Shown piece by piece: positions 3,904 through 24,961 of a stretch of 55,667 bases of DNA. Under the pieces are notes generated by a model. The model did no database searches and had not been told where the DNA came from. It worked only from the letters and a program-made list of their open reading frames with translations. Source of the DNA: Sinomonas gamaensis (GTDB taxonomy: Bacteria; Actinomycetota; Actinomycetes; Actinomycetales; Micrococcaceae); assembly GCF_005876955.1 (NCBI RefSeq), contig NZ_SSCL01000020.1:1-55667 (forward strand). The letters are read 5' to 3'. The stretch's first letter is position 1. Each line of letters opens with the position of its first letter. Made by a program: the position numbers and the translations under genes.

Positions 3904-3904
3904 G

Positions 3905-4080: not shown

Positions 4081-4083
4081 AAT

Positions 4084-5319: not shown

Positions 5320-5694
5320 GAGCGTGCCCCAGCCCAAAAGGCTGCCTCGCGCGAGGTTCAGGAGCGATTGCCTGACCGGCTGATGTGAGCCAATTCAGGT
5401 CCGAACCAGGTCTGGGGCGGGCTTCGCGAAGGATTCCGATCTTAAGATTCTCCGGATGCGGCATGTCCCAGAATCAGGATGACGGCTCAACCCAGGACCG
5501 CTGGGGTAGGTGTCCGTGACGTGGATGTTGCTGTTGTCGTACGTTCAAAGGGCAATTCATCGTGCGGGGTATACGCACCTCGGGCTGGGCTGAGCCCTCG
5601 GGGAAGGTTGAAGGGCACCCCTAGCACGCTGGATGGCCGGCTTGCGGACACGGAATCTGATGTGGCGCGCGACGACTGCGATACGGTCAGGAGC

Positions 5695-6234: not shown

Positions 6235-6315
6235 TCGGGGCCTCGATGATCATCACGACTGGACTGGCTGTGAATCCATTCGCCGACACGACCCGCTAGT
6301 TACGGGTGAACATCG

Positions 6316-6828
6316 TTGGCTGACACGCTGACGCCCGCCGCGCTCACGCGCCTCGTTCCGCCGTCGTCTTGGACGGCTAGCTCGTTGCCCGGCGAGACTC
6401 GGCGTTGGTTTGAGGTCTTACTGTTTGACGAAGATCAGAAAGCACTTGTCCTCGAGGCGTCACGCCGTTGGCTATGGGCTTCAGTGGACAGCAGCGGCAC
6501 GAGGCATCTGCATGAACTCCAACCGCCAGATGTAGTTGGAGTCCTGCCCTTACTCGAGCTCGATCCGGCAGCGCTGCAAGGGAAGCTCACCGACGCTGCG
6601 GACATTCTTCGGATTTCGCCCGCCGACCTGATCAATGTCTTGCCCTCAGCGGAGGTATTCGCAGCTGCACTCGAAACCAGGTCTGACTACTGGATCGACC
6701 GAGCGCTCGAGTGGATTACGAGGCTTCCCGCGCTGAACATTCCGCTGGCAGCCATTCGACCCGTCGTCGACGACCCGAGGGTCGGGCAGAGCGTCCGACA
6801 CCGCATCAGGAAGCTGTTGTCGACCTGA
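6316..6828 (+). CDS. Hypothetical protein
   Basis: 170 residues from a TTG start, beginning MADTLTPAALTRLVPPSSW. It is a soluble alpha/beta protein with several aromatic residues early on and two leucine-rich helices (LLELDPAALQGKLTDAADIL; IDRALEWITRLPALNIPL). I do not recognise the family. It lies 81 bases after the barstar-like gene on the same strand and could be co-transcribed with it. Confidence 0.6.
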   Translation: MADTLTPAALTRLVPPSSWTASSLPGETRRWFEVLLFDEDQKALVLEASRRWLWASVDSSGTRHLHELQPPDVVGVLPLLELDPAALQGKLTDAADILRISPADLINVLPSAEVFAAALETRSDYWIDRALEWITRLPALNIPLAAIRPVVDDPRVGQSVRHRIRKLLST

Positions 6829-6892
6829 GCGAGCACGTAGCCGCATCGTTCAGAGAGGCATTGAGAGCTGAGCATGATGCTAGCTTGACGAC

Positions 6893-7798
6893 ATGGAGCG
6901 CAGTCGAGACGAGCGGCGCCAACGTCGGCTTCCGCGACCCTATGCAGGCGAATATCCAGAGCGCCGCGTTGCAGCCTACCGTCCCGTCGGGAGCGGCCCC
7001 GATCCACTGAGAACTCTCGACATTGCCCGCATCGGCCAGTACCCCCTGCTGACGGCATGGGCGGCTCTCCACAACGCGGACCTGACGGGCAGGCCCGGAG
7101 TCCAGATCCTAGACCGGGCCATAGACGAGAAGACGATCGATGTGGACGGTCCGATCATGAGCGAGGTCGCCTATTTCGTCGGGGACCTCGTCTGCGAAGA
7201 GCAGCCGGGCTGCCGGTGGAATGTGGACGCTTGGGGGCTCCCCGTCCTAGCCCTAGACAGCGAAGACGGCCGCGGCCGGACGGTGTGGGATGTCCTCAAG
7301 TTCCAAGCGAAGGATCAATCAGGAGTCCCCCTCACTGGTGGAGGCAATCGACCGCTTCGGCACCTAATCCGAGGGGCCAAAACAGGAGTGACGGCTTCGA
7401 CGCCCGAAACGATGCCCCCTGGCGGATGCCTAACGGGCAGCTTCGGTACGCCATCCAGCTGGCGGTCGAGGTGCCGGTGGAACAACGACCGGCCACCACG
7501 ACTTTACTGGGCGAATCGGCGCGTCGGGTTCGCCGTGCCAACGGCGTTGGGCAGGCATCCAGACAAGTTCAGCACCCTCGCCGTTGGCTGGCGGTACGTT
7601 CACAATGCGGGCTGGCTCCTTGAGGTCAGGGACACGGAGCCTAGTCCCGAGTTGGCCGCCTGGTTGTTCGACGATGTGCCGATGCGCGTTGGCGGCGATC
7701 ACTTGGTTCAATTCAATGGTCTCGTACGCGTTCAGCTCGCGGCCATGCGGGACAGGCATATTCGACCGGAACATGGCGAGCGCCTGATGGGGCCCTAA
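6893..7798 (+). CDS. Hypothetical protein; C-terminal third doubtful
   Basis: The first 175 residues look coding (IGQYPLLTAWAALHNADL; MSEVAYFVGDLVCEEQPGCRWNVDAWGLPVLALDSEDG). Beyond about 7430 the frame overlaps the opposite-strand DUF4238 gene, which has much better protein character there. The remainder of this frame (GCLTGSFGTPSSWRSRCRWNN...) reads like noise. The original gene probably ended or broke near 7400. I do not recognise the family. Confidence 0.45.
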   Translation: MERSRDERRQRRLPRPYAGEYPERRVAAYRPVGSGPDPLRTLDIARIGQYPLLTAWAALHNADLTGRPGVQILDRAIDEKTIDVDGPIMSEVAYFVGDLVCEEQPGCRWNVDAWGLPVLALDSEDGRGRTVWDVLKFQAKDQSGVPLTGGGNRPLRHLIRGAKTGVTASTPETMPPGGCLTGSFGTPSSWRSRCRWNNDRPPRLYWANRRVGFAVPTALGRHPDKFSTLAVGWRYVHNAGWLLEVRDTEPSPELAAWLFDDVPMRVGGDHLVQFNGLVRVQLAAMRDRHIRPEHGERLMGP

Positions 7799-8524
7799 AG
7801 GGAAGACGATAACCGGTGCTCCGAAATATCCCCCGCCGTTAGGGTGGTCGTCCCCCATTCTCTCGTAGATCTGCACGACAGGCTCGTCGCCTGTAAGTAG
7901 GGGCTTTGCCGTGCTGTACAGCACGAATTGGCGACTACTGAGCACCTCGGCCAGCACACTTGCGCCTTGGATGGCCATGACCATCTCCTGCTCAGCGAGC
8001 ATCGGAACGCTCCAAGGGTCAGCGATAGCAGCAGCGAAATAGCGCTCGATCTGGCCGACTCGCTCAGGGGTCGGTTCCTCCCCGGCCCGCGTAAGCATGG
8101 CCTCAATCGCGCCAGGGCGGTGCAGTTCCCAAAGCTGGTACTGCCCAGCTCCCATCATCCAACGCCCTTGATAGCGGTGCGAGCGGGATCTGGTGATCTG
8201 CACCCCGATGAAGTGAAGAAGATGTCCCCATTGAGTATCGTCGAGGCTGCCTAGCCCGTCCGAGTCGATCGCCTCAAAGACCTTGGCTGCGCGCCCCTCG
8301 AGATCTGACAGCCACGTCTCCCAAACCACAGGAGAGCCACCGTCCACGGCCCCATCTGGTACCCGGTAGTAATCGGTCTCAATAAGCGCGTTGATCGGCG
8401 CGGCAGTAAAGCTCCTTCGGGTAGAGAGGTCGGTCACTCTAAGGCGATTGTTGATGGCCCAGCGATCCAGATAGAACCGGGGTACGAGGTGGTGCCGACG
8501 GGACTCTTGTCCATTGGCGGTCAT
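7430..8524 (-). CDS. DUF4238 domain protein
   Basis: 364 residues from ATG 8524. The opening QESRRHHLVPRFYLDRWAINN is the signature H-H-x-x-P-x-x-Y-L of DUF4238. Further conserved features are LLHFIGVQITRSRSHR, a central FVLYSTAKPLLTGDEPVV strand and IELNQVIAANAHRHIVEQ near the end. Function is unknown; members are scattered on accessory DNA and may be nucleases or toxins. The frame is open 56 codons further upstream but loses the family start there. It faces the unknown plus-strand gene. Confidence 0.8.
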   Translation of the reverse strand: MTANGQESRRHHLVPRFYLDRWAINNRLRVTDLSTRRSFTAAPINALIETDYYRVPDGAVDGGSPVVWETWLSDLEGRAAKVFEAIDSDGLGSLDDTQWGHLLHFIGVQITRSRSHRYQGRWMMGAGQYQLWELHRPGAIEAMLTRAGEEPTPERVGQIERYFAAAIADPWSVPMLAEQEMVMAIQGASVLAEVLSSRQFVLYSTAKPLLTGDEPVVQIYERMGDDHPNGGGYFGAPVIVFPLGPHQALAMFRSNMPVPHGRELNAYETIELNQVIAANAHRHIVEQPGGQLGTRLRVPDLKEPARIVNVPPANGEGAELVWMPAQRRWHGEPDAPIRPVKSWWPVVVPPAPRPPAGWRTEAAR

Positions 8525-8753
8525 AGCTCTTGAGGCGTCGAGAATGCGCCGAAGTTCGGGCGACACTTCGCCCTTGGATCTTCCGGATCTTCGGTTTGTC
8601 AATTCAAAGATCCAAAGAGCTGGACGATTTGATGCTCCATACCTCGACAGTACGGGATATTCGGAATGGTGTTGGCGAGGCGGCCGCACCACGAACGGAT
8701 TGAAGTGCGCGCCCGTCGAGGTGGTCCCTCTGCGAATGCGAACGAATCGGGCC

Positions 8754-9644
8754 TCATGCTTGTGCTTCGAAGAGCCTGTTCGTCAGCGGACCGATGCGCT
8801 CCGCGATGACGTTGTTCCAGGCATCCTGGTACTCCTGCTCGAGTCCGAAATGCGCGACCACCCCGCTGACAACCGTGCAACTGGTCTTGGTCATCGCCCC
8901 GATGAACGGGAGCACGAGCGCAGGGGGCTGGACGAACCCGATCCCGGCTTCGATGTTCCTGCCAAGGAACGCCGACACCCCGGCCGTCTCGCCGTGGGCT
9001 ACGGACGAGAGCTGCGAGTAGAAGGCCCGTCCATCAAGCCCAGGGACGCACTCGGACACGACCATGGAAGCCAGTGCCGTAACGCCGACTTTCTCCCGTT
9101 CGAAGCCCAACGCCGCGAGCTTATCCTCAAGAGCTGCCATGTGAGCACGTACGTCGAGCGGTTCGCCTCGCAGGTCACGGAAGGCGTCGCCGACCTTCTT
9201 CACCGACACTTCGAGCTCTGCAAGGCCCAGACTGAGGTGGCGCCCTACCATCTCCTTCGCCGTGGGGGCCATGAGGAGGTAGTGAGCCTTCCCCAGCGCC
9301 TCGACTGCACCCCGGGTGAGGGTTGCGAGGGACATGGCCTGCCCTTCGCCCAGGACCGCCGCGAACGAGCGCAGATGATCCAGGGCAGTGAAGACGCATA
9401 CGCCGATCGCCAGATGCCCTGAGGCGACGTACGAGCTTCCCGTCAAGGTCGGAGAATTGGCGCTGTCCTCCATATACACCTCAGCCCGGGACCCGTTGCG
9501 TGGGGGTCGCCCCAAAGCCAAATGCGTGATCGTCTCGGCGCCGGGCGCAATAACTGAGATGAGTTCCCTGATCAGGTCGACCTGGTCCGCGCTCAAGCGA
9601 TCCTCAGACGCTGAGGTGGCGGCAGGATCGCTGTCGGCTGTCAT
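8754..9644 (-). CDS. Hypothetical protein
   Basis: 296 residues, MTADSDPAATSASEDRLSADQ..., mostly helical. A central part (LATLTRGAVEALGKAHYLLM; FYSQLSSVAHGETAGVSAFLG) resembles the helical 'retired/absent residents' type domains found beside mobile genes, with S-x-x-A-H-G as a possible conserved loop, but I cannot name a family. It is encoded back to back with the DUF695 gene at 9769. Confidence 0.7.
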   Translation of the reverse strand: MTADSDPAATSASEDRLSADQVDLIRELISVIAPGAETITHLALGRPPRNGSRAEVYMEDSANSPTLTGSSYVASGHLAIGVCVFTALDHLRSFAAVLGEGQAMSLATLTRGAVEALGKAHYLLMAPTAKEMVGRHLSLGLAELEVSVKKVGDAFRDLRGEPLDVRAHMAALEDKLAALGFEREKVGVTALASMVVSECVPGLDGRAFYSQLSSVAHGETAGVSAFLGRNIEAGIGFVQPPALVLPFIGAMTKTSCTVVSGVVAHFGLEQEYQDAWNNVIAERIGPLTNRLFEAQA

Positions 9645-9768
9645 GAGCCAACGCTACTGCTTCAGTATCGAGCCTCAGCCCGAGAGCATGTGTCCGATAG
9701 ACGATCCCTCACTGACACAGCAAGACTGCAGGGCCGGGATTATGGGCGCGGACCCGTAGTCTTGCGCC

Positions 9769-10782
9769 ATGCGCCTCTTCCGTAGGAGCGACCCGGTTGC
9801 CCTCGTACATCCCATCTCTGCTTTTTGGGAATGGTGGGGAAGGCAGGGTCGCACGATTGACCCGCACCAGCCGTCGGCAGCTCTTGAACAGCTAAGCCAG
9901 CGGGTTGCGGCGGTCCATCCCGGCCTCACCTGGCACTTCGGGGCAGGCAGCGAGTCCGAACACCGGCTCACCGTATCGGCCGGCGGGGTCGCGGAAGTTC
10001 GCCCGACGGCCGAGCGCTGGCTCCGCGCTGCACCGCCGGCAGACGCGACCTGGGAGTTCCGCGCCAGCCAAGAGGCCGAGCCGGAAGCCTTCAACGAGAT
10101 CCTCGAGATCGCCGGGAGCAAGCTCGATCTGTGCAAGACCCTGTTCCGGGTCGAGCCCGTGGAAGAGATGCTCAGGGTCAACGTCGGAGTCCACCACCCC
10201 GCGTTCCCAGACGTCCCGAGGCAAGTCCGGCTGCAAGTGACCTATCTCGTTCTCGACTGGCTTCTGGGAGAGGACGACGTCGAGCGATGGCTGGGCCAGA
10301 TTGAGGCGCTGGAGACGGCTCCGGACACGGTCGGAGACGGCGCCGGCCTGCTCCGCGCAGTCGCCTCGATCGCTGAGCGCCGCGACCCTGACGAGTGGAG
10401 CCTTGCGCAGTGGCAGGAAGCAGACGGCACGCCCGGCATTGCGCTGTTCCGCCAGGCGCTGCGTTGGATCGACTACCCCACACTCGATGTCCACCACAGC
10501 ATCCATGCTTCCTATGCATCCCAGCCCAACGGACTTCCCGCCAACGGTGCCGCGCTCGAACCGCTTCGCAGGCTCGATTACGAACTGGAAGCCCTTCTTG
10601 GCTCCCGCGGCATACTTGTCGGTCACCAGACGATCGCCGGAGGTCGAACTTTCCACGTCTACACCGACGGTGAAGACCAGAACATCGCGGCTGGATTGGC
10701 CGACTGGGCCCGCTCCCGTCGCCTCGCGATCGAGTCTGCAAGCGACCCGGCTTGGCGAAGGGTGCGGCACTTCACCGGATGA
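9769..10782 (+). CDS. DUF695 domain protein
   Basis: 337 residues. The N-terminus (HPISAFWEWWGRQGRTI) and the C-terminal domain (LRRLDYELEALLGSRGILVGHQTIAGGRTFHVYTD) match the DUF695 pattern, where a Phe-Trp-Trp opening precedes a long alpha/beta body. Function is unknown. No signal peptide. The gene is intact and flanked by non-coding DNA on its right (10783-10860). Confidence 0.75.
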   Translation: MRLFRRSDPVALVHPISAFWEWWGRQGRTIDPHQPSAALEQLSQRVAAVHPGLTWHFGAGSESEHRLTVSAGGVAEVRPTAERWLRAAPPADATWEFRASQEAEPEAFNEILEIAGSKLDLCKTLFRVEPVEEMLRVNVGVHHPAFPDVPRQVRLQVTYLVLDWLLGEDDVERWLGQIEALETAPDTVGDGAGLLRAVASIAERRDPDEWSLAQWQEADGTPGIALFRQALRWIDYPTLDVHHSIHASYASQPNGLPANGAALEPLRRLDYELEALLGSRGILVGHQTIAGGRTFHVYTDGEDQNIAAGLADWARSRRLAIESASDPAWRRVRHFTG

Positions 10783-10860
10783 GCGGCCCACATCCTGTTC
10801 CCTCCGCCCCTCGGCGATCCCGTAACGGGCGTTGCTCGGCGTTCGATTGTCCGCAGGGCG

Positions 10861-10978
10861 TCAGCTGTGAAGGCGAGTGTGGTTGAGGCGGTAGGAGTCA
10901 GCGCCGGTTTGGATGATGGTGCCGTTGAAGTTGATGGTTAGATGGGTTCGCTCGGTACCGGGTTTGAGGGAGACCAGC
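10861..10978 (-). pseudogene. C-terminal fragment of an unidentified gene
   Basis: On the minus strand the frame reads ELVSLKPGTERTHLTINFNG then TIIQTGADSYRL and ends LNHTRLHS-stop at 10861. The text is protein-like and compact, in contrast to neighbouring frames, but no start is present. Such a tail could come from a transposase or other mobile gene; I cannot identify it. Confidence 0.3.
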
Positions 10979-11010
10979 TCGACGTCAGTTGGCGTCAATC
11001 CGAAAAACGG

Positions 11011-11739
11011 CTATTGGAGCTGAATTTGAGTCCAGTCAATCGAGAACACCTTCTGCACCGCATCCAGGTTCGCGGCCCCGGAACAAACGGCGGTCCGGGC
11101 CTTGGACTCCACGACATCCTTGTCGTTCGCTGCGAACCCCTCGTCCTGACTTGACTTCGTCCATTGAGATTCATTGTGCACGTAGGACGACGGGGTGGAA
11201 TGGATTAACGAGAGCGGATCTGGCCAGAGGTTCCTGACGTCGCTTGCCCCGCCGATGGTCAAGGGCTCGAGGTGGTCGAGCTCGTACTTGGACGCGTCGG
11301 AGGCGGGGATCCCGTAGGCGGCCATGATCTTGAGTTTGGCCGGGTCGGTGAGCGTTACGGGTGGCCGGACGCTGGAGGTGTATCCGCCCTTGCGGCACAC
11401 CGTCTCCTTCAGGTTCGCCTGCGTCACGGCACTGTCGACCGCGCCGGGGGTGCACTTGGGGTCCGGGAGGGGCTCCTTCTCGGCCGTCCAGCGGATGTGG
11501 CAGCTGTTCGGGGCCGGGATCGTCCCATCCAGCCCGGCCTGCGTCCATCCGTGGCCGTTGGCGACGACCGGGCCCGAGGTGTCTCGTGAACCCGGCTCCT
11601 GTGAGACGCCTGCCGTGGACCCGTCGGAGGCACTGTGGGCCCGCCCGGCCGATGGGATCTGGGCACACCCCGCCACCGGCAGGAGGGCGGCTGCGAGAGC
11701 GAGTGCGGCGAGGGCTCTTCGGGGGTCCATGAACCTCAT
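11011..11739 (-). CDS. Secreted lipoprotein with HNH-like motif
   Basis: About 242 residues from MRFMDPRRALAALALAAALLPVAGC: positive start, hydrophobic stretch and a lipobox LPVAGC, so it should be anchored outside the membrane. The mature part carries YELDHLEPLTIGGASDVRNLWPD, the D-H-x-x-P-L-x-x-G-G-x-x-x-x-x-N-L core of HNH nucleases, and several cysteines. The later H/N of a full HNH site is not clear, so nuclease activity is uncertain. A C-terminal fragment of a paralogue lies at 3730-3903. The frame is open to 11814 but that would bury the signal peptide. Confidence 0.75.
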   Translation of the reverse strand: MRFMDPRRALAALALAAALLPVAGCAQIPSAGRAHSASDGSTAGVSQEPGSRDTSGPVVANGHGWTQAGLDGTIPAPNSCHIRWTAEKEPLPDPKCTPGAVDSAVTQANLKETVCRKGGYTSSVRPPVTLTDPAKLKIMAAYGIPASDASKYELDHLEPLTIGGASDVRNLWPDPLSLIHSTPSSYVHNESQWTKSSQDEGFAANDKDVVESKARTAVCSGAANLDAVQKVFSIDWTQIQLQ

Positions 11740-11940
11740 GTGTGCGGCCTCCTCAGCCCTCTTAGACGGCCCGATGCATGAACGAGCGGGAATATTCTGC
11801 CCCGCCCCAGACACCTCTGGGGCAGCGGCCCACGATCGACCTTACGGCTGACCCGTGGATGTGTGTCGGTGCCCCGCCCTAGACTGCTGATCCCTGGGGC
11901 AGAGCGCCCCACGAGACGACATTCGGGGAGGGACAGACGG

Positions 11941-12693
11941 ATGGCGGCACCAAGGCTCGAGGCCGACAGTCGAGAGGTGGCACTCACCGCACTCGGGCTC
12001 GTTGCGGTGCTCGGAGTGGCGAGCTTCACGCTCTCATTCCAAGGACTCATCCAGGCCGCGGCGTGGGCTGGCATCCCGCCTCTCCTGCGGTGGCTGGTGC
12101 CGATCGTCGTCGACTCGACCATCCTGGTCTACGCCCTCGCGGCCGCCGTGCAGCGCGCCAGAGGCGAGAACACGCGGCTGTCGTGGGCGGCTGTGGCGTT
12201 CTTCACCACCGTCTCGGTTGCCGCGAACGCCGCGCACGTCCTCGCACCCGAGGGGGTGCCGGCACAGCTCACTCTCCCGCTGGCGTTCGGAGCAGCTCTG
12301 GCGGCCATCATGCCGATCTCGCTGTTCTTTGCCACCGAGTCGGTCGTCCAGATGGCCGTGGCGCCGCCGCTCGGCACCATCGCCCAGCGCCGGAAACGGG
12401 CCCTGCTGAAGCTGGCCCAAGAGCGAGGCGAAGATCTTGGGGCGCTCGGGCTCTCGGCGGATGGGTCGGGCTCACGGGCCAGTGCTGGGCCACGGCCGGG
12501 GCAGCGGGCTGGGACAACTGGGCCAGCGCGCCCTCGTGTGGAGGCCGACCCGGCCAAGGTGCGAGAACTGGCGGAGCGTGGCATGTCCCATCGGGAGATC
12601 GCGAGCGAGCTGGGACTGTCCAAGAGCAGCGTGGGGCGGATCCTTGCCGGCGGCCAGAAGGGCGGTCGGGAACCGGTCCCCGCCGGCACGTGA
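11941..12693 (+). CDS. DUF2637 membrane protein with C-terminal HTH
   Basis: 250 residues. Four membrane segments lie at about 12-30, 42-62, 76-96 and 103-121, matching DUF2637 (actinobacterial plasmid-transfer or Spd-like proteins). After a glycine/proline-rich linker the C-terminus is a helix-turn-helix: VRELAERGMSHREIASELGLSKSSVGRIL. ATG 11941 is preceded by GGGGAGGGAC. Family members occur mostly on plasmids and integrative elements, so it supports a conjugative or plasmid origin for this segment. Its DNA target is unknown. Confidence 0.85.
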   Translation: MAAPRLEADSREVALTALGLVAVLGVASFTLSFQGLIQAAAWAGIPPLLRWLVPIVVDSTILVYALAAAVQRARGENTRLSWAAVAFFTTVSVAANAAHVLAPEGVPAQLTLPLAFGAALAAIMPISLFFATESVVQMAVAPPLGTIAQRRKRALLKLAQERGEDLGALGLSADGSGSRASAGPRPGQRAGTTGPARPRVEADPAKVRELAERGMSHREIASELGLSKSSVGRILAGGQKGGREPVPAGT

Positions 12694-16279: not shown

Positions 16280-16860
16280 CTATTGCGTCGTCAAGCCGGA
16301 TCGCGTCGGGCCGAACCCCTGGGCCGCTTCGACCCGGTCGATGCACCCGATCATGGGCACCCCGGCGACGGAGATCCCCTCGAGCTTGTCCTCGAGGCCC
16401 TTCAGGAGCACGTGGGCGGGGTCCTCGGTCTTCCACAGGACTTCGTAGCAGTGCTTTGCCACGGCGATCCACTCGGCTCGCTGGGCGGCGAGCTCCTTGA
16501 GCTCCTGCCGGCTCTCCCCGCCGGTTGCCGCCCACTGGGCGTCGGCCTTGGCCAGGAGGATCTTGTAGGCCCGCTCCATGGTGCGGTCCTTGGCCGGGAG
16601 GGCGAACAGGTCCTCCAGGACGGAGTGCGCGGCGGTGCCCAGGGGTGTGGTCGAAGGGGTTCTCGACCTCGCGCTCCCGGGTGAGACGCTCCCCCACTCA
16701 GCGTGCGGCGCAGCCTTGGAAGGACTTCGACGTCGAGGGGGACAGGGCGGGCCGCCGCATGGCGGCGAGGGTCGCCTGGTCGGTGACCTTCAGGGGTGCT
16801 GCCGTCCCACTCGGCGATGCCGGCGATCACGGTGCAGTGGTCGTGGTCATGGTGTGCCTA
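16280..16860 (-). pseudogene. Cas4/RecB-like PD-(D/E)XK nuclease remnant
   Basis: Pieces in three frames assemble into the N-terminal half of a phage-type Cas4/RecB exonuclease: IAGIAEWDGSTP, then VTDQATLAAMRRPALSPSTSKSFQGCAAR, an in-frame TGA where the family has Trp, VGERLTREREVENPF, a frameshift, and TTPLGTAAHSVLEDLFALPAKDRTMERAYKILL (G-T-x-x-H active-site motif). It ends VAGVPMIGCIDRVEAAQGF-, just where the catalytic D and E-x-K strands should come. Such nucleases sit with primase-helicase genes in actinophages, as here. Confidence 0.6.
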
Positions 16861-16928
16861 TGCCAGCACTCGCCCGACGGCCGTCGGCTCAGCACCCGGA
16901 GCAGGGCCCCCGGTTGGTGAGGCCGCCT

Positions 16929-17249
16929 TTGACCGACGCGACCGACGTTGACCGACGCCGTTGGTCACGGAAAATCCGCGCCATCACTGGGATCCGAGCC
17001 CGTTTTCGGTCTCTGACCAACATGGGGACTCCGGAACATAGGACCCATATAGAGAGGAGATATAGGTTTCTTCGAAACCGGAGGCCCACTTATCTATATC
17101 TATCTCTTCATGACGTATACCTTTCTTGTTAGTCAGCTGGTCACTCGGGTTCTCGCCCTACTGCCGACTGGGATCTAGCCCGACCAACGCTGTTGGTCAA
17201 CGTCGGTCACGTCGGTCAAAAAACCCCCGAAAACCACGATTTCGGCCAC
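16929..17249. repeat. Long direct repeat, copy A: inverted iterons around AT-rich core
   Basis: Starts with GACCGAC at 16931, 16940 and 16950 plus an inverted GGTCA, and ends with GTTGGTCA, CGTCGGTCA and GTCGGTCA at 17193-17219. The iterons at the two ends therefore face each other. Between them lies a low-GC stretch (ACTTATCTATATCTATCTC at about 17090) ideal for strand opening, and a GGAACATAGGACCCATATAG segment. About 90% identical by eye to copy B at 23048. The primase-helicase gene begins 64 bases downstream. Confidence 0.8.
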
Positions 17250-17312
17250 CATCGCCGGCCAGAGCCGCTCACCGACCCGCACCCGTGCTCCGACCCCGTG
17301 CATAGACCTGGC

Positions 17313-20300
17313 ATGACCATCGAGCACAACGGCGCGCAGGACGCGCCCGAGAACAGCAGCGACGAGCAGACCCTGGACGAGGCGGCGGAGGCGTTCATCG
17401 CCAAATTCGCCGCAAGCGCTCCCGCCGGGCAGCGCGACCTCCCCGCCTGGGCCCCGGACGACTACACCGGGACCATCATTGGCAGCGGCGCCTACAAGCT
17501 GGCCGACTCGGCCGTCGCCCCGCTCGTCGCAGCCGCCCGCGGCTACTCCCGCATCGACGAGGACAACTTCGGCACCGTCAAGGACATGGGCGTCCGCCTC
17601 AACTCCAAGCAGGGCCAGCGGATGAAGCGCACCATGGGCCTCCCCGGCCGCGACGGGATGCTCATGCCCTGGTACAGCGTGAACGACATCGCAGCCAACC
17701 AGGCCAAGAACGCCCCGCTCGTCCCCTTCACACACCAGCTTCGCCCTGGCCTGCCCGAGAACAACGACAAGGGCAAGCCGGTCAAGTACGAGTTCGTCTC
17801 CCAGGTCGGGACCCCGCTGGACGTGCATCCCGCCGTCCCGACCGACTGGATCGACGGCGCCCCGACCCTGATGATCGCCGAAGGCCTCCTCAAGGGCGAC
17901 TCCGCCCTGTCCGCGTACCTGAAGCAGCACGGGGCCAGCTGGGACGACCTCGCCTTCACCGGCCCCCTCGCGGAGGCCCGCGAGAGGATGCGCGCCCTTA
18001 TGGACGCCATCCCGGAGAAGGACCGGGTGTTCATCTTCAACATCGGCGGCATCTACAACGACCGGCAGAACCCGGTCGACTGGCGCTCCATCCTGCTGAA
18101 GAACCGGGCTGCGATCGTCGCCTACGACGCCGACTTCAAGGAGAACCCGCACGTGTGGCGGGCCGCGAAGGGCATGGAGACGTTCCTCAAGGGCAAGGGC
18201 GTCTCATCCGTCCGGTTCCTGGACCCGGACGTCGTCGATGAGAAGAAGCCCGGCGTGGACGACTTCCTCGCCCAGACCCCCGGCGGGTGGCCGGCCCTGA
18301 TGGGCACCTGCATCACCGACATCGGCCAGATGCCCTCCGACTACAAGCCCGGGGACGTGCGCATCTCCGAGGACGGGCTGCGCACCGAGGAATACTCCGC
18401 CGGGGAAGATGGGCAGGGGTACTGGAAGACGGTGGTGGACCTCGGCGGCCGGATCAAGGTCATCGAGGACCGCCGCAGGCCCACGGAAGAAGAGACAAGA
18501 TCTCTCGTGTTCAACTCCGACGTCTCCCCTGACGAGATGGAGGAGTCCAGGGTCGAGATCGAGGTCGCGTGGAAGGACAGGCTCGGAGAGGCGATCAGGG
18601 CCACCGCCAGCGGCCCGGCCTTCCTGCTCGCCACCCACCCCCAGGACTGGGTGCGGGCCAAGGCGACCATGCCGTCGCACACGCTGCTCGCCAACCCCGA
18701 CTGGTCTCCGAAGGGTCACCGGGGTGATCAGTGGCTGCGCGCGGTGAAGGCCAACCGGCTCGATGATCGCGTTCTGAGGACGAGATGGATGCAGATGGGG
18801 TGGGTTCCCGTCGAGGGCGGCGACCCGGTCTTCATCGCAGGCCAGACGATCGTCGGCGGCGGCGAGCAGTTCCGCAAGACCGCCGAAGCGGGCGTCACCC
18901 CCGGCGTCATGCCGGTCTCCACCTCCTTCGGCGTCGGGGAGGACATCCCGGTCGCGGACTGGGACAGCCAGACCTACCGGGACATGGTCGCAGCGGACAT
19001 CCGCGAGGTCGTCGCCCACTACGTCGACTCGGGCGCCTGGACCGACCCGGCCACGGGTGTGCTCGTGATGTGCATGGGCCTGCGTCCCGTCCTGCCCATC
19101 CGCCCGAACTCGACCGGCTACTTCTGGGGCCCGAAGGGTAAGGGCAAGTCCTTTACTGCCCACCGGTGCATGCAGTTCTGGGCCGCCTCCCCCGGTCGGG
19201 ACTGGATCGACAAGCTCCCCGGCTCGGCCTCGGACACGGCCGCGTATATGGAGAAGGCCGTCTCCATGGCCCCGATCTGGGTGGTCGACGACCTCGCCCC
19301 GTCGACGTCGCAGCGGGCCGCGGACGCAGGCGCCTCCAAGCTGGAGGACCTGATTCGGGCGGTGTTCAACGACTCCGGCAAGGGCCGCATGAACGCGGAC
19401 ATGACCGCCCGCGCCCAGAACCGCCCGATGGCGCAGCTGATCGTCACGGCCGAGAACCGGCTCGCGACCGCTTCGGCCATGGAACGCACCATCCCTGTCG
19501 CGATCGGCGAGGGCGCCCTGTCGCCGTCGACCGAGGTCACCGACGCGCTCGTCCAGCTCGGCAAGGACGGTGTCCCGGCCCCGGCTCACCGCGCACCTGA
19601 TTCAGTGGATCCAGCACCGCGGACGCGAGTACCCTTCCCGCTGGGCTGGATACTTCGAGGAGGTCCTCGCCCAGTTCCACGAGGGCGCGAAGGAGGACGT
19701 CAAGCGGCTCATGGAGGCCGCCGGCGCGGAGCGGTCCAAGATCGAGCGCACCTCGAACCTGATGGGCGACGTCCTCTCGGTGCTGCCGCTGCTGCAGGAG
19801 ATGGCGATCCGCGCCGGGGTCGAGCAGGTTCTGGTCGACCGGCTCTCGGTGGATCAGATGGGCCTGCCGGTGGTGCAGAACGCCATGGAGACCCACGAGG
19901 AGAACCGGGAGGCTGCCCCGGGCATGTCGCTGGTGAGGGCGCTGAAGAACCTGCTCCAGTCCGGGCGGGCGCACGTGGTCGCGGTCGAGGACCCCTCGCG
20001 GGCCCCGTTCCTGGGCTCTGACGAGCAGGAGGTCGCCCGGCAGGCCCTGACGAACAACCAGCTCGGCTGGATCGCGGGCGGCTCGGACGGCTCCCTGCGC
20101 CCCGGCGGGGAGAGCGTCGGGTTCCTGGTGAAGATCATGGACCACGACGCAGTCCTGTTCTCCAGGGAGACGGCGTTCAACGCCGCCCGCCGCGCCTACC
20201 CCGACCTGATCCCGCCGGGACAGGGTGCCGCGTCGGCGTGGATGGCTGTCTGGGACGAGGGGCACGCCATGCCCGTGCGCCGGGAGAAGGGCCGCGGGGG

Positions 20301-20436
20301 CCGGGAGCTGGCGACCTACCGGTACCGGTTCGGGAACATCGACCTGAGGGGCATCCCGGTGAGCCTGGACACGCTGTTCAGCGGCGGCCGCATCCACGCC
20401 GAGCTCGAAGACGACGAGCAGGACCTCGCCGCCTGA
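17313..20436 (+). pseudogene. Primase-helicase (DUF3854 toprim plus SF3/DUF927-like helicase), one frameshift
   Basis: Start ATG 17313 (MTIEHNGAQD). Residues about 180-330 form a toprim-like DUF3854 domain (LMIAEGLLKGDSAL; AIVAYDADF with the metal-binding D). A helicase ATPase follows: Walker A GPKGKGKS near residue 606, Walker B WVVDD near 656, then LIRAVFNDSGKGRMN and IVTAENRL. At 19569 one extra base separates '...DALVQLGKDG' from '(V)SRPRLTAHLIQWIQHRG...', which runs cleanly to 20436. Total about 1,040 residues if repaired. A GTG at 19570 could restart translation and give two subunits. It should start replication of a plasmid or phage-like element from the adjacent repeat. Confidence 0.75.
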
Positions 20437-20454
20437 CCGAGGCGGCTGGACAGA

Positions 20455-20479
20455 GGGCCCGGACAAGGCGTCCGGGCCC
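20455..20479 (+). terminator. Rho-independent-type hairpin after primase-helicase
   Basis: GGGCCCGGAC and GTCCGGGCCC form a perfect ten-pair stem with an AAGGC loop, followed by TTCG. It starts 18 bases after the stop. Confidence 0.75.
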
Positions 20480-20506
20480 TTCGCCGTCCCATTTGCGTGA
20501 TTCCAT

Positions 20507-20959
20507 ATGTCCATGAACAGGTGGGGGACTGCAGCGACTTTGGCCGCTTCCTTGCTAGCCCTTGCTGGGTGCCAGGGAGCACCTTCTGACGCGGGGACAG
20601 CGAAAGCGGCGGCGAAGGCCATGACGGTGGCCGGAACCCTCTCAATTTCAGGCAAAGCCGAAGGCGCTGCCTTCGCTGCCTCCTCCGGGAAGGCGTGCCG
20701 GCTCAGCCAAGCCGCGGCCTGGATCCACGATGGAGGCCTAGTGGTCCTGGCCCCCTCCGGGGACAGTGTCACGGCGACGGTCGCCATGGAGGGCACGATC
20801 GACGCCCAGCATCGATGCAACCTTCCGTTCACAGCTTCCCGGGTGCCCGACATGGACGGCACCTACCGCATACGGGTCGGCCGGGGATCGGCCGTGACCG
20901 AATCCCCCTACTCCAGGGGCACGCTGGCCGCGGCGCCAAACGTCACGTATCTGGACTAG
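20507..20959 (+). CDS. Small lipoprotein
   Basis: 150 residues with a signal peptide and lipobox (ATLAASLLALAGC), so exported and lipid-anchored. The mature part has an alanine-rich linker and a beta-rich domain with two cysteines (GKACRLSQAAAW; AQHRCNLPF) likely to form a disulfide. Family unknown. ATG 20513 is an equally good start. It lies between two terminators and is probably transcribed alone. Confidence 0.7.
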   Translation: MSMNRWGTAATLAASLLALAGCQGAPSDAGTAKAAAKAMTVAGTLSISGKAEGAAFAASSGKACRLSQAAAWIHDGGLVVLAPSGDSVTATVAMEGTIDAQHRCNLPFTASRVPDMDGTYRIRVGRGSAVTESPYSRGTLAAAPNVTYLD

Positions 20960-20975
20960 GACTCGAGAACAGGCA

Positions 20976-21007
20976 GGAGGCCCGGACCAAGACAGTCCCG
21001 GGCCTCC
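20976..21007. terminator. Convergent-gene hairpin terminator
   Basis: GGAGGCCCGGAC pairs with GTCCCGGGCCTCC (one bulge) around a CAAGACA loop and is followed by CTT. It sits between the lipoprotein gene and the minus-strand HTH pseudogene and can serve both. Confidence 0.7.
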
Positions 21008-21038
21008 CTTAGTGTGAACACTCCCCCAGCGGGGCCTT

Positions 21039-21345
21039 TCAGGCGGCGTCTGCTTCGGTGATGCCGAACTCCTTGGAGACGATCCGCACGGCCATGGCCT
21101 TGATCTCGCGGATGTGGGTGCGGATGGTGGAGCGGGAGAGGCCCCATCGGCTCTGCGATCTCGGCGACGTCCACGATGAGGGGCGGGGCGCCGTCGCGGT
21201 AGGGGCCGCCGAGCCGGAGGTGGGTGACCTTTCCGAGCTGGGTGTTGGCCTCCCCCGACCTGGTCGACGATGAGCCTGACAGCCTTGGCCCCCCGGTGTG
21301 CGGCCGGGCGTCAGGACGAGCGCAAGCCGCACACATGGGTGCCCA
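21039..21345 (-). pseudogene. HTH protein remnant with homopolymer frameshifts
   Basis: Segments in three frames join as AKAVRLIVDQVG + EANTQLGKVTHLRLGGPYRDGAPPLIVDVAEIAE + RWGLSRSTIRTHIREIKAMAVRIVSKEFGITEADAA-stop. The last part is a LuxR/Hin-like helix-turn-helix (GLSRSTIRTHIREIK). The breaks fall in a G-run near 21250 and at about 21148. In the upstream frame a TGA precedes RPAAHRGAK, so the N-terminus is also lost. Confidence 0.55.
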
Positions 21346-21347
21346 TG

Positions 21348-21596
21348 ATGTTCGATGCGTACCCGGGACAGTTCGACCACAAGACAGCGCTGGGCTCCCT
21401 CGCCTCAGTCGCCACGACTGAACGCAAGGCGGCGATCGTCGACGAGCTCATCGAGCTCCTGCCCGAGAAGCTCACCGACATGGAAGACCTGCAGATGGCC
21501 GACTTCCTCCTCCGGTGCCTCGGGTCAGCCGAGGAGCATTCCGTGACCGAGTCGCCACAGCGGGTAACTGATCCAGAGCAGGGAGATCCATCATGA
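21348..21596 (+). CDS. Hypothetical small helical protein
   Basis: 82 residues, MFDAYPGQFDHKTALGSLASVATTERKAAIVDELIELLPEKLTD..., all helix-prone. ATG 21345 directly before it is an alternative start. The start lies just after a CACACATGG motif (21330-21338) shared with other accessory genes. Its stop overlaps the next ATG (ATGA), so the two are coupled. Confidence 0.6.
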   Translation: MFDAYPGQFDHKTALGSLASVATTERKAAIVDELIELLPEKLTDMEDLQMADFLLRCLGSAEEHSVTESPQRVTDPEQGDPS

Positions 21597-21904
21597 GCGC
21601 CACCGTCCATCCCATCCGCCGCGAGCTCACCCTCGCCCAGGTTCTGGCCGTCGTCGACCCCGACGGGGCCCTCCACGGGCTGATCGAGACACTGCTCGGC
21701 CTCGGGGACCCGGCCACAGTGCGGGAGGCGGAGAAGGCCGCTGCGACGGCCGACGCTGCCGAGAGGGCCGTCGCATCCCTGATCCGGTCCGTCGAGTCCC
21801 GCTCCCCGCGGTGGCATGAGCTCATGCTCGTGTCCGAGGCGATCTCCCGCCGCGCAACCCGGATCGAGTCCGCCGCACGCGTCTTGGGCACCCGCGCCGC
21901 CTGA
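21593..21904 (+). CDS. Hypothetical protein
   Basis: 103 residues, MSATVHPIRRELTLAQVLAVV..., helical and alanine-rich with repeated charged helices (REAEKAAATADAAERAVASLIRSVESR). Coupled by ATGA to the preceding gene; no known family. Probably part of the element's small accessory operon. Confidence 0.6.
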   Translation: MSATVHPIRRELTLAQVLAVVDPDGALHGLIETLLGLGDPATVREAEKAAATADAAERAVASLIRSVESRSPRWHELMLVSEAISRRATRIESAARVLGTRAA

Positions 21905-21949
21905 GCGTGTCCGCTCGAACCCCTGCACGGCCTGAGAGAGGATTCTGGG

Positions 21950-22492
21950 ATGTCCCGCGACCGCTTCATGCGCATCCACAGCCCCGAGTTCAAGGCGATG
22001 AGCGAAAGGGTCCTGCAGGTCACCGCACTGACCTCCCGGCTCAACGTCCTGCCCTTTGAGGACGAAGCGGGCAAAGCCGAACTGCTCGAGCAGATCCTGG
22101 GCCGGCCCCTGCCGGAGAAGGCCACGATCTACCCGCCCTTCTACACCGACCACGGCCTCAACCTCGACCTCGCCGAACGGGTCTTCATCAACCAGGGCTG
22201 CACGTTCCTGGACTACGCCGGAATCCGCATCGCCAAGAGGGTGATGATCGGCCCCAAGGCCACCTTCATCACCAGCGGCCACCCCGTCGACCCAGAGGAG
22301 CGCAGAGTCTGGCTGACCGGTGCCCCCATCGACATCGAAGAGAACGTCTGGATCGGCGCCGGTGCGACAATCCTGCCCGGCGTCACCATCGGCCGGGACT
22401 CCGTGATCGCCGCCGGCTCTGTCGTGGCCGACGACGTCCCAGCTGCCACCCTCGTGACCGGCACCAAGGCCTCCGTACGCCGTCAGTGGTGA
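21950..22492 (+). CDS. Sugar O-acetyltransferase (maltose/galactoside acetyltransferase family)
   Basis: 180 residues. It has the N-terminal cap (FMRIHSPEFKAMSERVLQVTALTSRLN) and a left-handed beta-helix of hexapeptide repeats (IGPKATFITSGHPVDPEERR..., APIDIEENVWIGAGATILPGVTIGRDSVIAAGSVV). The H in TSGHPVD is the usual catalytic base. It transfers acetyl from acetyl-CoA to a sugar hydroxyl. Length and repeats match Maa/LacA/NodL; the substrate is not predictable. Likely cargo of the element, with AGAGAGGA upstream. Confidence 0.88.
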   Translation: MSRDRFMRIHSPEFKAMSERVLQVTALTSRLNVLPFEDEAGKAELLEQILGRPLPEKATIYPPFYTDHGLNLDLAERVFINQGCTFLDYAGIRIAKRVMIGPKATFITSGHPVDPEERRVWLTGAPIDIEENVWIGAGATILPGVTIGRDSVIAAGSVVADDVPAATLVTGTKASVRRQW

Positions 22493-22526
22493 GCCCGCAG
22501 CCGCAGGCCTTCCCGGTCGGCGGCTC

Positions 22527-22961
22527 CTAGCGGGACTGGGTCGCGTACTCGAGGGCGACGTCGCCGATCTCGTCGCGCTCGTCGCTGCCCTCAGGGGCGT
22601 AGGCCTCCCAGTCGCCTTCCCACTCCACCGAGGCGTCCCCGGGCAGGAGACGCGCACGCACCCTCGCCCCGTTCGGCATCGCGAGGACCGCCTCGGGGAA
22701 CTCCCCCGTGGTCTCCAGCTGCGGGTCACGCACATGCGCCGGGGTGCTGTCCACATCCGCCACGCCGAGCACCGCCGAGACGGGCAGCTCGACCCCCGCG
22801 GGCCAGGCGCCCATCGGGTGAGGGTACTTCGGGTCCGGGTGGGGGAATCTGGCAAGCGGGTCTGCAGCGAGGGACACCTCCGGCTCGCGGTGCTCCACGG
22901 GGGCGAACTGGCCGCCGGTGGGACGGCCCGCGGGCTGGCGGTTCACAGGGATCGTGCTCAT
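22527..22961 (-). CDS. Hypothetical protein with 'GRPTGGQFA' N-terminus
   Basis: 144 residues opening MSTIPVNRQPAGRPTGGQFAPVEHREPEV. The Pro-Ala-Gly-x-Pro-x-Gly-Gly-Gln-Phe-Ala opening is shared by many unrelated-bodied proteins of actinobacterial plasmids and phages. The body is acidic with a predicted beta domain. Role unknown. Confidence 0.65.
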   Translation of the reverse strand: MSTIPVNRQPAGRPTGGQFAPVEHREPEVSLAADPLARFPHPDPKYPHPMGAWPAGVELPVSAVLGVADVDSTPAHVRDPQLETTGEFPEAVLAMPNGARVRARLLPGDASVEWEGDWEAYAPEGSDERDEIGDVALEYATQSR

Positions 22962-23047
22962 GCCCGTCTGTGTGCGGCCCGGAGCGGACCCGCCGGCATC
23001 GGGTCGCCGAACGCGTTCAACACCCGGATCGGCGTCAAAACCGGCTC

Positions 23048-23379
23048 TTGACCGACATGACCGACGCTGACCGACGTTGACCGACAGCGTCGGTCATCGA
23101 AAATCCGCGCCATTACTGGGATCCGGGCCCGTTTTCGGTCTCTGACCAACATGGGGACTCCGGAACATAGGACCTATATAGGGGAGGGGTGTATATGTTC
23201 TCCGGAACCGGAGGCCCACTTATCTATATCTATCTCCTTATGACGGATACCTTTCTTGTTAGTCAGTTGGTCACTCGGCCTCTCGCCCTACTGCCGACTG
23301 GGATCGAGCCCGACCAACGGTGTTGGTCAACGTCGGTCATGTCGGTCAAAAAACCCCCGAAAACCCCGATTTCGGCCCA
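23048..23379. repeat. Long direct repeat, copy B: inverted iterons around AT-rich core
   Basis: Four GACCGAC units at 23050, 23059, 23069 and 23079 plus an inverted GTCGGTC, and at the right end GTTGGTCA, CGTCGGTCA and GTCGGTCA (23323-23347). The central part keeps CTTATCTATATCTATCTC and GGAACATAGGACC. It matches copy A almost base for base outside short hypervariable patches. The next gene starts 65 bases downstream, nearly the same spacing as for copy A. Confidence 0.8.
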
Positions 23380-23444
23380 AAACGTCGGTCACGGCCCCAG
23401 ACGGGTGTCGACGACGGCGGAGATGTCCGCACACATTACGTCCC

Positions 23445-24276
23445 ATGCTGAAGACGACCAGGACGCCGGCTGAGCGCGCACTGCACACCTTCCGCACCGA
23501 CTGCGACGGCAACCGGATGGAGATCAAGCTCGAACAGGGCCCCTACCGGCACCTCTCGTTCCGGTCCCCCGGCTCCGGCCTCTACTGGTACGACCTGATC
23601 ACCACGCCGGGTCAGCTCACGTACCGTGGCGACTGGGGCTCTTGGATTTTCGCCAGGTGCGAGGACATGTTCGAGTTCTTCCGGCTCCAGCGCACCAAGA
23701 CCATCAACCCCGACTACTGGTCGCAGAAGCTGGTCGCGGACGACGCCTACACCAAGCACCGCGGCTTCTCCCCGGAGAAATTCCGGGCAGAGGTCGTCCA
23801 GCAGTTCTGGGACCGCCGGGACCGGCTCGGCTCAGATGCAATCGACGTGTGGCAGGCGATCCGCGAAGAGGTTCTGGACCAAGTTCGAGGACTACACCGA
23901 GGAGAACGAGGCGATCCGCTCGGCGTACGAGTTCGGCCACAAGGGGTGCGAGTTCTGGAGCCCCGAGGACTGGGATGTGAAAGAGTACGCACACCAGTAC
24001 CTCGTGGCGCTGTACGGGATCGTCGACGGCATCGCCCGTTACGACGCCGCCAAGACGGCTGCGCTGCCCGCCGGGCTCGTCGCCGCACAGCGCTATGGCC
24101 TACCGAATCGTCCGCCACCCCTGGCCGACACCCGCCCAGATTCGCATGTCCACGACCCGACGGACCGTGGATGCCGCAGTCGCAGACATGGTCCAAAGTG
24201 CACATACGGTTGTTCTCATGACCGTTCCCTCATCGCCCGCACGCCTGTTTATCGGATCCTCTTCGGAGGGGCGTGA
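23445..24276 (+). pseudogene. Phage-like hypothetical protein, one frameshift
   Basis: ATG 23445 opens MLKTTRTPAERALHTFRTDC. The section YRHLSFRSPGSGLYWYDLIT and GDWGSWIFARCEDMFEFFR is a pattern I associate with an uncharacterised protein of phages and plasmids. The frame breaks near 23880 (REEVLDQ / WTKFEDYTEENEAIRSAYEFG) and continues as CEFWSPEDWDVKEYAHQYLVALYGIVDGIARYDAAK. The C-terminus runs into the TIR-like gene and is probably truncated. CACACATTA precedes the start. Confidence 0.6.
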
Positions 24277-24961
24277 CCTTGCCCGCCACCTGCAGACGGA
24301 ATTAGCCGGCAGCTGCGAGGTCGAACGCTGGGACCAGAACGTCTTCGAGCCATCCGGATACACACTCGACTCGCTCCTGCGAATCGCTGCAAGCGTCGAC
24401 TTCGCGGTTCTGGTTGCCACTCCCGACGACACGACCGTCAGCCGCGGTGTCACCACACCGTCCGCTCGTGACAACATCATCCTGGAGTTCGGACTGTTCG
24501 CTGGGGTCCTCGGGCGAGAACGGGTCTACCTACTAGCCACAGGGGAGCTGAAATTGCCAACCGATGTCCTGGGACTGACACGTCTGGCCTATCACCCCCC
24601 GGCCGGCGAGAACACCCGCGCTGCAGTAACTGCAGCCGCCCTTCAGATCGAAGAAAGGATCCGGAGTCTCGGCCGTGTGAATCGGATAGACGAGCCAAGC
24701 GCTCGTAACGCCCCGAACGCCGCTCTGGAACAGGAACTCGCCATCGTCTGCGCAAATGCTGTGGCTCAGGGTTGGGTGGTGAAGGCCAATAGTGCAACAA
24801 CCCTGCGCCTGCGTTCCCCTAGGGGCAAGACGCACACTCTGACAAAAGGCCAGCCCGAGCTCACTCGCGTCGAACTTCGGCGCTTTGCCGCTGAGCTTCG
24901 AGCCGCGGGCCTGCGAGTGAATCACAGCGTGCGGCGACCGGTGACCGAATCGCCCTTCTGA
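24218..24961 (+). CDS. TIR-like nucleotide-binding effector (CAP12/Pycsar TIR family) with extra C-terminal domain
   Basis: 247 residues from ATG 24218 (MTVPSSPARLFIGSSSEGRD). Residues 9-108 match the PF10137-type TIR-like domain: RLFIGSSSEG at the start, VERWDQNVF, DFAVLVATPDD, and RDNIILEFGLFAGVLGRERVYLL with the catalytic-position Glu90. Such domains degrade NAD+ and act as abortive-infection effectors in CBASS or Pycsar. No cyclase is adjacent. Residues about 168-240 form a separate module (NAVAQGWVVKANSATTLRLRSPRGK; RVELRRFAAELRAAGLRV) that resembles small HicA/dsRBD-like nucleic-acid binders, by inference. A longer frame from 24095 overlaps the previous pseudogene and is not family-like. 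Confidence 0.8.
   Translation: MTVPSSPARLFIGSSSEGRDLARHLQTELAGSCEVERWDQNVFEPSGYTLDSLLRIAASVDFAVLVATPDDTTVSRGVTTPSARDNIILEFGLFAGVLGRERVYLLATGELKLPTDVLGLTRLAYHPPAGENTRAAVTAAALQIEERIRSLGRVNRIDEPSARNAPNAALEQELAIVCANAVAQGWVVKANSATTLRLRSPRGKTHTLTKGQPELTRVELRRFAAELRAAGLRVNHSVRRPVTESPF

Follow-up and report, generated by a model that had tools for sequence, protein, structure and literature searches.

Iteron-type plasmid origins combine short repeats of a single specificity with an adjoining AT-rich region of low stability, and their sequence differs between plasmids; baculovirus hr regions also act as origins. The present analysis concerns a repeated element in the window, that is, the whole 55,667 bp contig C13 (NZ_SSCL01000020.1), one of the 35 contigs of the Sinomonas gamaensis genome (4.32 Mb). 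The reading favoured here, with a confidence that is about even, is that the repeats are copies of an origin-type element belonging to a Micrococcaceae megaplasmid family, with at least one copy active per replicon. Further comparisons are offered by several known systems: arrays of one specificity occur at separate places on the replicon in scattered centromeres (N15-type, OB sites and pSM19035 parS) (PMC5016525), DnaA-trio tracts belong to the unwinding system of bacterial oriC (PMC8287927), haloarchaeal replicons have multiple origins (PMC3936714, PMC4441112), baculovirus hr regions are dispersed AT-rich repeats described as enhancers (PMC2834656), and conserved DNA repeats of Arthrobacter plasmids, from a 2016 work, are described for conjugal transfer modules (PMC6305408).

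The element resembles iteron-type origins in its short repeats of one specificity beside AT-rich, unstable DNA and in its plasmid-specific sequence. It differs from them in that its arrays flank the core and point towards each other, in that no Rep-type initiator was recognised among the scanned proteins beside it, and in that several near-identical copies lie 44-134 kb apart on one replicon. With the scattered centromeres (PMC5016525) it shares arrays of one specificity at several places per replicon, but the element is the least stable DNA, has a conserved AT core and has one copy beside a primase-like gene. Several origin-like sites per replicon recall the haloarchaeal multi-origin replicons, whereas the plasmids concerned here are bacterial and the copies on one plasmid are nearly identical. 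The dispersed AT-rich repeat regions likewise resemble the baculovirus hr regions, although replicon and sequences are unrelated. No description of the element was found in the literature searched, with subscription papers, including one on Arthrobacter plasmid repeats, beyond reach.

The two window repeats, in direct orientation at 16929-17249 and 23048-23379 (offset 6129-6130), are real and far beyond chance. They had been described as some 325 bp long and alike almost throughout, which gapped alignment bears out (321 nt, 91.3 % identical, E 8e-128); ungapped, the copies share blocks of 199 nt (90 %) and 113 nt (93 %). The 199-bp block matches in its own genome the two copies and two inverted arms within them, all on C13, and matches none of fourteen genus mates. 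The features of the repeats are as follows.

16929..17249, + strand: element copy 1, facing iteron arrays and AT-rich core, flanked by divergently starting PD-(D/E)XK-like (-) and primase-like (+) genes
16931..16966, + strand: left iteron array of copy 1 (three GACCGAC, then GTTGGTC)
17083..17105, + strand: conserved AT core of copy 1, matching GGCCCNCTTATNTATATNTNTCT with 0 mismatches
17182..17217, - strand: right iteron array of copy 1 (GACCAAC, GTTGGTC, two GTCGGTC)
17227..17245, - strand: terminator-like hairpin and T run at the right edge of copy 1 (consensus match only)
23048..23391, + strand: element copy 2, flanked by divergently starting GGQFA-type (-) and phrog_4657-type (+) genes
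23050..23095, + strand: left iteron array of copy 2 (four GACCGAC, then GTCGGTC)
23213..23235, + strand: conserved AT core of copy 2, 0 mismatches to GGCCCNCTTATNTATATNTNTCT
23312..23347, - strand: right iteron array of copy 2

The GACCRAC unit, for which the remaining window gives an expectation of 0.14 per 400 bp, occurs as an exact pattern nine times in copy 1 and twelve times in copy 2. Copy 1 has GACCGAC at 16931, 16940 and 16950 and GTTGGTC at 16960 on the left, an inner GACCAAC at 17015, and GACCAAC (17182), GTTGGTC (17192) and GTCGGTC (17202, 17211) on the right. Copy 2 has GACCGAC at 23050, 23059, 23069 and 23079 on the left and one additional unit, a GTCGGTC at 23384, past the end first assigned to it. 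These positions agree with the left counts of three versus four at a spacing of 9-10 given in the preliminary description. The units mostly point inward from both ends: the left arrays comprise three (copy 1) or four (copy 2) units plus one inverted, the right array has four, the first of which points outward, and one or two single units lie inside. The commonest 8-mer in the 800 bp before the gene, a cruder control, is weaker than the unit count, with values of 5 (copy 1) and 8 (copy 2), where 100 shuffles averaged 2.4 and 2.6 and reached at most 5 and 7; copy 1 equals its shuffle maximum. Copy 1 is also an imperfect inverted repeat (arms 16928-17002 and 17146-17220, 72 %), while copy 2 was not listed as one and its left arm matches the complement of the copy 1 right arm. 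The terminator-like hairpin and T run recur in copy 2 at 23357-23375; four such hairpins occur in the region, versus a shuffle mean of 2.2, and Rfam at gathering thresholds gave no match in the window.

Using the primase-like protein encoded beside copy 1 in a tblastn search, eight plasmid records were obtained, all circular and of 375-608 kb, five from the Arthrobacter group and three from Curtobacterium, with protein relatives that are 37-49 % identical. The element is found on five of the eight, circular Arthrobacter-group megaplasmids of 375-440 kb, at four to five sites each (21 copies in total). The copies were reached through a clustered-repeat scan of one plasmid (cao), which gave two like arrays, and then through similarity searches. 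These plasmids are pACHL01 of Pseudarthrobacter chlorophenolicus A6 (A6; NC_011879, 426,858 bp; four copies at 8, 131, 222 and 335 kb), YJN (NZ_CP053545, 440,465 bp; four at 0, 86, 203 and 337 kb), BIM (NZ_CP061722, 417,721 bp; five at 37, 96, 160, 249 and 358 kb), a plasmid of Arthrobacter caoxuetaonis (cao; NZ_CP099467, G317:C2, 374,851 bp; four at 124, 168, 280 and 369 kb) and one of Arthrobacter sp. zg-Y1110 (zgY; NZ_CP104273, G322:C2, 400,603 bp, of which 400,000 were analysed; four at 116, 165, 291 and 393 kb). Further short matches, three of the eight in one of these searches and weak ones in another, are pieces of flanking promoter-like sequence or of arrays and were left uncounted. 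The draft genome G125 has at least three copies and G107 one, which by eye look like those of A6 and YJN. A search for the repeat in related genomes, as had been proposed, led past the genus mates to an element family on five megaplasmids and in these two genomes. There are two copies on the window contig and four to five on the five complete relatives, and this multi-copy element suggests, but does not prove, several origin-like sites per plasmid. The preliminary description had the two window copies bracketing an excisable 6.1-kb module. This part is not supported, as the relatives carry dispersed copies with inter-copy distances of 44-134 kb, so that the 6.1-kb distance is particular to the window contig.

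The copies coincide with the least stable DNA of their replicons. Using nearest-neighbour energies in 100-bp windows, with A6, cao, zgY and BIM scanned nearly whole, the copies are exactly the four least stable sites of A6, cao and zgY and exactly the five least stable sites of BIM, and the two window copies are the two least stable 100-bp sites of the contig. With 60-bp windows BIM is the sole exception (ranks 1-4 and 6). In cao, zgY, BIM and A6 each of the 17 copies can be read as arrays pointing inward on an AT core. The unit patterns, picked per plasmid by eye without a shuffled control, are GCCAAC in cao, mixed GCCGAC/CCAAC in zgY, CGACC in A6 and GACCGA/GGCGACC in BIM; the unit of the window is GACCRAC. 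A core of GGCCC-CTTATNTATAT is common to an alignment of eleven copies and is present as an exact pattern in all copies of A6 (4/4) and of the window (2/2).

The longer core GGCCCNCTTATNTATATNTNTCT, with one mismatch allowed, marks the plasmid family in that it is carried by five of the 395 genomes searched (G000, two matches; G125, three; G317, four; G322, three; G107, one), while the reversed control gave 0. Independent matches are those in G125 and G107 only, since window, A6, YJN, cao, zgY and BIM copies served to derive the motif. The primase-like gene is found in ten of the 395 family genomes, own genome included, with relatives in the nine others 37-52 % identical. Four of the five core-bearing genomes are among these ten carriers (Fisher p 1e-6), a value that is partly circular because the motif source sequences include G000, G317 and G322; G125 is a carrier, and G107 has no primase match. 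A viral scan with a shorter core pattern gave 14 contigs with one match each, which may be due to chance. Arrays of other units before the primase look similar by eye in G148, G162, G169, G376 and L007, but the 8-mer test puts only the G162 array above shuffles. In the stretches covered, the arrays of G148, G162 and G169 each occur as a single copy, and the core is absent from the G148, G162, G169 and G376 stretches.

The copies are spaced more evenly than under random placement, as judged by the coefficient of variation (p 0.0026 for A6, 0.0053 for BIM, 0.0069 for YJN, 0.062 for cao and 0.047 for zgY), in a test chosen with the positions already seen. Since A6/YJN and cao/zgY share positions, three lineages were counted, and the combined p for A6, BIM and cao is ~1e-4. 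Copies within a plasmid are 82-98 % alike in A6, BIM, cao and zgY, versus 71-75 % for same-position copies of cao and zgY and 72-76 % for those of A6 and YJN. Homogenisation is thereby evident for A6, cao and zgY only, as BIM has no sister plasmid in the set. Such likeness among plasmid mates is as expected if one plasmid-specific protein binds all copies.

The neighbourhoods of the copies recur among plasmids, as judged by eye from the DNA to the right of each copy. One copy adjoins the primase gene in the window, A6, YJN, BIM, cao, zgY and G125, and in the six relatives it sits between the primase and a PD-(D/E)XK gene. A copy precedes the PD-(D/E)XK gene in A6, YJN, BIM, cao, zgY and G125, a GGQFA-type gene in A6, YJN, cao, zgY, G125 and G107, and a Lys/Ala-rich gene in A6, YJN, cao, zgY and G125. 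These shared neighbourhoods suggest that the copy positions are old. The origin-type control element proposed in the preliminary description is supported, as facing iterons span the contig's least stable DNA next to a primase/helicase-like gene, and the same architecture is found beside relatives of that gene. Genes and boxes around the window repeats comprise the following.

16304..16850, - strand: PD-(D/E)XK nuclease relative, remnant or divergent, frame-broken; about the first 200 of 600 residues match a megaplasmid protein
16848..16863, - strand: GCATAG box and start codon of the PD-(D/E)XK-like gene (box by eye; protein match)
17300..17315, + strand: GCATAG box, then 7 bases, then start codon of the primase-like gene (by eye)
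17313..20436, + strand: primase/helicase-like gene, with a frame change near 19580 and a Walker A-like GPKGKGKS
20507..20959, + strand: small protein with a lipobox-like start (by eye), previously called a lipoprotein
21045..21291, - strand: C-terminal helix-turn-helix remnant, frame-broken; the full protein is encoded upstream of the primase in megaplasmids
21950..22492, + strand: hexapeptide acyltransferase (PF00132, E 2.2e-13), previously called an acetyltransferase
22527..22961, - strand: protein with N-terminal motif NRQPAGRPTGGQFAP (GGQFA-type)
22959..22977, - strand: CCGCACACA box and start codon of the GGQFA-type gene, left of copy 2 (box by eye; open reading frame)
23427..23447, + strand: CCGCACACAT box and start codon, right of copy 2
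23445..24042, + strand: phrog_4657-type protein, frame broken near 23882-23911, with relatives on same-family megaplasmids

The start codons downstream of the copies, previously placed 64 and 65 bases away, lie 64 (17313) and 66 (23445) bases beyond 17249 and 23379, so that only the first distance stands. The same GCATAG-box arrangement precedes the primase or PD-(D/E)XK genes of relatives. N-termini resembling that of the NRQPAGRPTGGQFAP protein are found on many megaplasmid genes and, by eye, also beside copy B of the relatives, and the small protein at 20507-20959 matched nothing in Pfam or PHROGs. The frame change in the primase-like gene reflects either a pseudogene or a sequencing error, and the broken frames, several in all, point to decay of this plasmid region or to errors of sequencing. 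Assignment of copy 2 to the phrog_4657-type gene was considered and rejected, as the relatives of this gene on BIM, A6 and YJN (~122, 403 and 365 kb) are far from all copies and the 350 bp upstream of it on the three Curtobacterium plasmids are without an array by eye. Right of copy 2, at 24095-24961, a TIR-domain protein of the CAP12/Pycsar effector family (PF10137, E 7e-27) is encoded, which is likely an anti-phage defence gene.

The copy 1 neighbour is primase/helicase-like, rather than of a Rep family, by Pfam and PHROGs scans. Pfam gave no match for the window protein itself, while twelve aligned relatives point at best to DUF3854 (4/12, best E 0.0034) and several P-loop families, and PHROGs to 'DNA primase' (7e-7). 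With these leads, the 'toprim/SF3' label of the preliminary description is weakly testable. A PDB sequence search with the single protein returned nothing, and one with the profile returned two weak matches (E 0.17, 0.94). An AlphaFold2 model of the N-terminal 759 residues and two relatives reached a mean predicted local distance difference test (pLDDT) score of 33, and no fold search was based on it. A satellite phage had also been suggested, which the searches do not favour: a phage collection gave no match by DNA or by the primase-like protein, an IMG/VR scan with peptide patterns of this protein, which reaches close relatives only, gave none, and the relatives found are megaplasmids.

An unbroken relative of the primase-like gene, 69 % identical, lies on contig C11 of the same genome, and C11 and C13 share segments with each other and with megaplasmids. 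The C11 region upstream of the primase has a weak array only and occurs once in its own genome. A 7.3-kb stretch of the window (3871-11170) is missing from the syntenic C11 place, where its flanks meet at 48434/48435; the open reading frame at 4084-5319 within it presumably encodes an IS110-like transposase. Contigs C11, C12 and C31 open with near-exact copies (98-100 %) of the last 126 window bases (55542-55667), and copies of ~75 % identity lie close to the starts of C14, C23 and C26 and within C21. These bases are a repeat common to contig ends, perhaps an insertion sequence or another repeat.

The origin-type reading is preferred because it best accommodates, taken together, the low stability, the facing arrays, the units particular to each plasmid and the primase-like neighbour. 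In an origin of this kind, binding of the facing arrays by a plasmid-encoded protein would be followed by duplex opening through strain on the intervening AT core, and the primase/helicase, encoded beside copy 1, would be loaded on the opened DNA. Copies would be alike within and different between plasmids because one plasmid-specific protein reads them all. At least one copy per replicon should fire. That the circular megaplasmids fire from four to five evenly spaced, near-identical origins with one initiator for all is a narrower case within the origin-type reading and is doubtful; in that case the window would be part of a shrunken family member retaining two origins. Gene orientation tends to diverge at the copies (mean percentile 0.75, p 0.0008), as assessed in 20-kb flanks only for 13 copies of A6, BIM and cao, zgY being omitted as a sister of cao. 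TAG-trinucleotide runs (three or more) occur in all four A6 copies and nowhere else on A6, in all five BIM copies and at one other BIM site, and in G125 and G107 copies. A TAG tract beside AT-rich DNA, as in the A6, YJN, BIM, G125 and G107 copies, recalls the DnaA-trios of oriC (PMC8287927).

A number of observations weigh against an origin role, in part or in whole. Unlike that oriC system, the window, cao and zgY copies have no TAG runs, and no consensus DnaA box (TTRTNCACA) occurs in 23 copies with 60-bp flanks. A DnaA box is not required in every iteron-type plasmid origin. No Rep-family initiator or iteron-binding protein was found among the proteins scanned with Pfam and PHROGs. YJN fits poorly, its four copies having weak or no facing arrays and being 72-94 % alike, so that homogenisation is not clear. 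The exact core pattern is met in just two of five BIM, two of four cao and three of four zgY copies, and at the DNA level the window element matches the others over short lengths only (22-35 bp with BIM; 37 bp with a YJN copy, E 0.1). The three Curtobacterium plasmids, which were not scanned whole, have a single-copy region before the primase in which no element was seen. Raw GC skew falls across 14 of 17 copies (10-kb flanks), opposite to the usual origin, and a coding-strand C bias (skew at third codon positions, GC3, about -0.21 to -0.22) may lie behind this. Skew corrected for gene strand shows a single two-phase trend in A6 and BIM (permutation p<0.001) and zgY (0.006) and no trend in cao (0.78), and does not support several equal origins. 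In A6 the nearest copy to the skew minimum is 2 kb away and in cao, which lacks a significant trend, <1 kb away, against 49-54 kb in BIM and zgY; the bootstraps are wide.

The main rival to the origin-type reading, less probable yet a serious possibility, is that the copies are dispersed centromeres, at which a ParB- or ribbon-helix-helix-type protein binds the arrays and ParA moves the plasmid, the plasmid-specific repeats giving compatibility. Even spacing and multiple copies fit origins and centromeres alike, and same-specificity arrays at four to five sites on five of the eight primase-relative plasmids, the 7-bp units at 9-10-bp spacing and the homogenisation all agree with partition sites. 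So does a ParA-type gene ~2 kb upstream of the primase in BIM, alongside which no centromere-binding protein was identified, and a syntenic gene annotated as an AAA or ParA family ATPase in four further plasmids. Centromeres do not, however, need to be the least stable DNA of the replicon, the ACAGAGTCTGT repeats of cao and the GGACCACC repeats of BIM and C11 are other clusters that could serve in partition or transfer, and no ParA match was found in C13 or C11, which may be incomplete. It is improbable that the arrays are operators or enhancers through which a plasmid regulator controls flanking promoters, as with pSM19035 omega or the baculovirus hr regions. By eye, thirteen of the 21 copies lie before a boxed start codon (GCATAG or CCGCACACA/CCGTACACA) and four more precede a Lys/Ala-rich gene, and both window copies lie between two boxed divergent starts. 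Four copies (BIM_96, BIM_358, cao_124 and zgY_116), however, are without such a start within 200 bp on the right side, 80-111 GCRCACA-ATG sites per plasmid compare with four to five elements, and operators need neither even spacing nor low stability.

Transfer sites (clt-like) read by an FtsK/TraB-type DNA translocase are very unlikely, although FtsK/SpoIIIE-domain genes are found on cao and A6, with a copy 2 kb from the FtsK gene in cao and 8 kb from it in A6, and a type IV secretion system-type gene on cao. The units are comparable to the Streptomyces TraB 8-bp repeats. The Arthrobacter-plasmid repeats of the 2016 work may bear on this role, for which an AT core is not expected and which is better fitted by the GGACCACC arrays at a DUF2637 gene (BIM, C11). 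Even less is to be said for the originally proposed recombination of the two copies into a replicating 6.1-kb circle: two direct repeats, 91 % alike over 321 bp, do flank the primase, but its frame is broken and the five complete relatives have dispersed copies instead of flanking pairs. Least credible are mobile repeats resembling miniature inverted-repeat transposable elements with terminal inverted repeats. The element is multi-copy and non-coding with inverted arms, yet it keeps the same gene neighbourhoods in diverged plasmids (by eye, A6/YJN/G125 and cao/zgY), its copies change together in A6, cao and zgY, and it was not found elsewhere in its own genome.

Other repeats and boxes occur on the same replicons. 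Dense GGACCACC/GTGGTCCA repeats, a possible transfer or partition site, lie at or near a DUF2637-helix-turn-helix gene in BIM (17937-18738) and C11 (47048-48334), the window relative of this gene lies at 11863-12693, and related GGACCA repeats occur in G131 and G169 stretches. From 373.9 kb through the record start to 1.0 kb, cao has ~2 kb of non-coding ACAGAGTCTGT/TAACAGA-type palindromic repeats near its raw GC-skew minimum, and the beginning of a similar tract is found near the zgY record end. The promoter-like box GCRCACA, mostly CCGCACACAT and usually 7-8 bases before ATG, occurs at 80-111 sites per megaplasmid in A6, BIM, cao and zgY, versus 0-2 in the complement control, and at three in 260 kb of G169. 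Its strict form is found at five sites in the S. gamaensis genome, on contigs C11, C13 and C14 only, and the box may mark a regulon under a sigma factor or polymerase specific to the plasmid, as well as the contigs that belong to the replicon family.

Most bacterial replicons are taken to use a single origin. If the several-origin case is true, several well-spaced origin-like sites would directly test this rule in culturable soil strains, and if the copies are centromeres instead, they would form an unusually regular dispersed set. Origin or centromere, the element marks a plasmid family.

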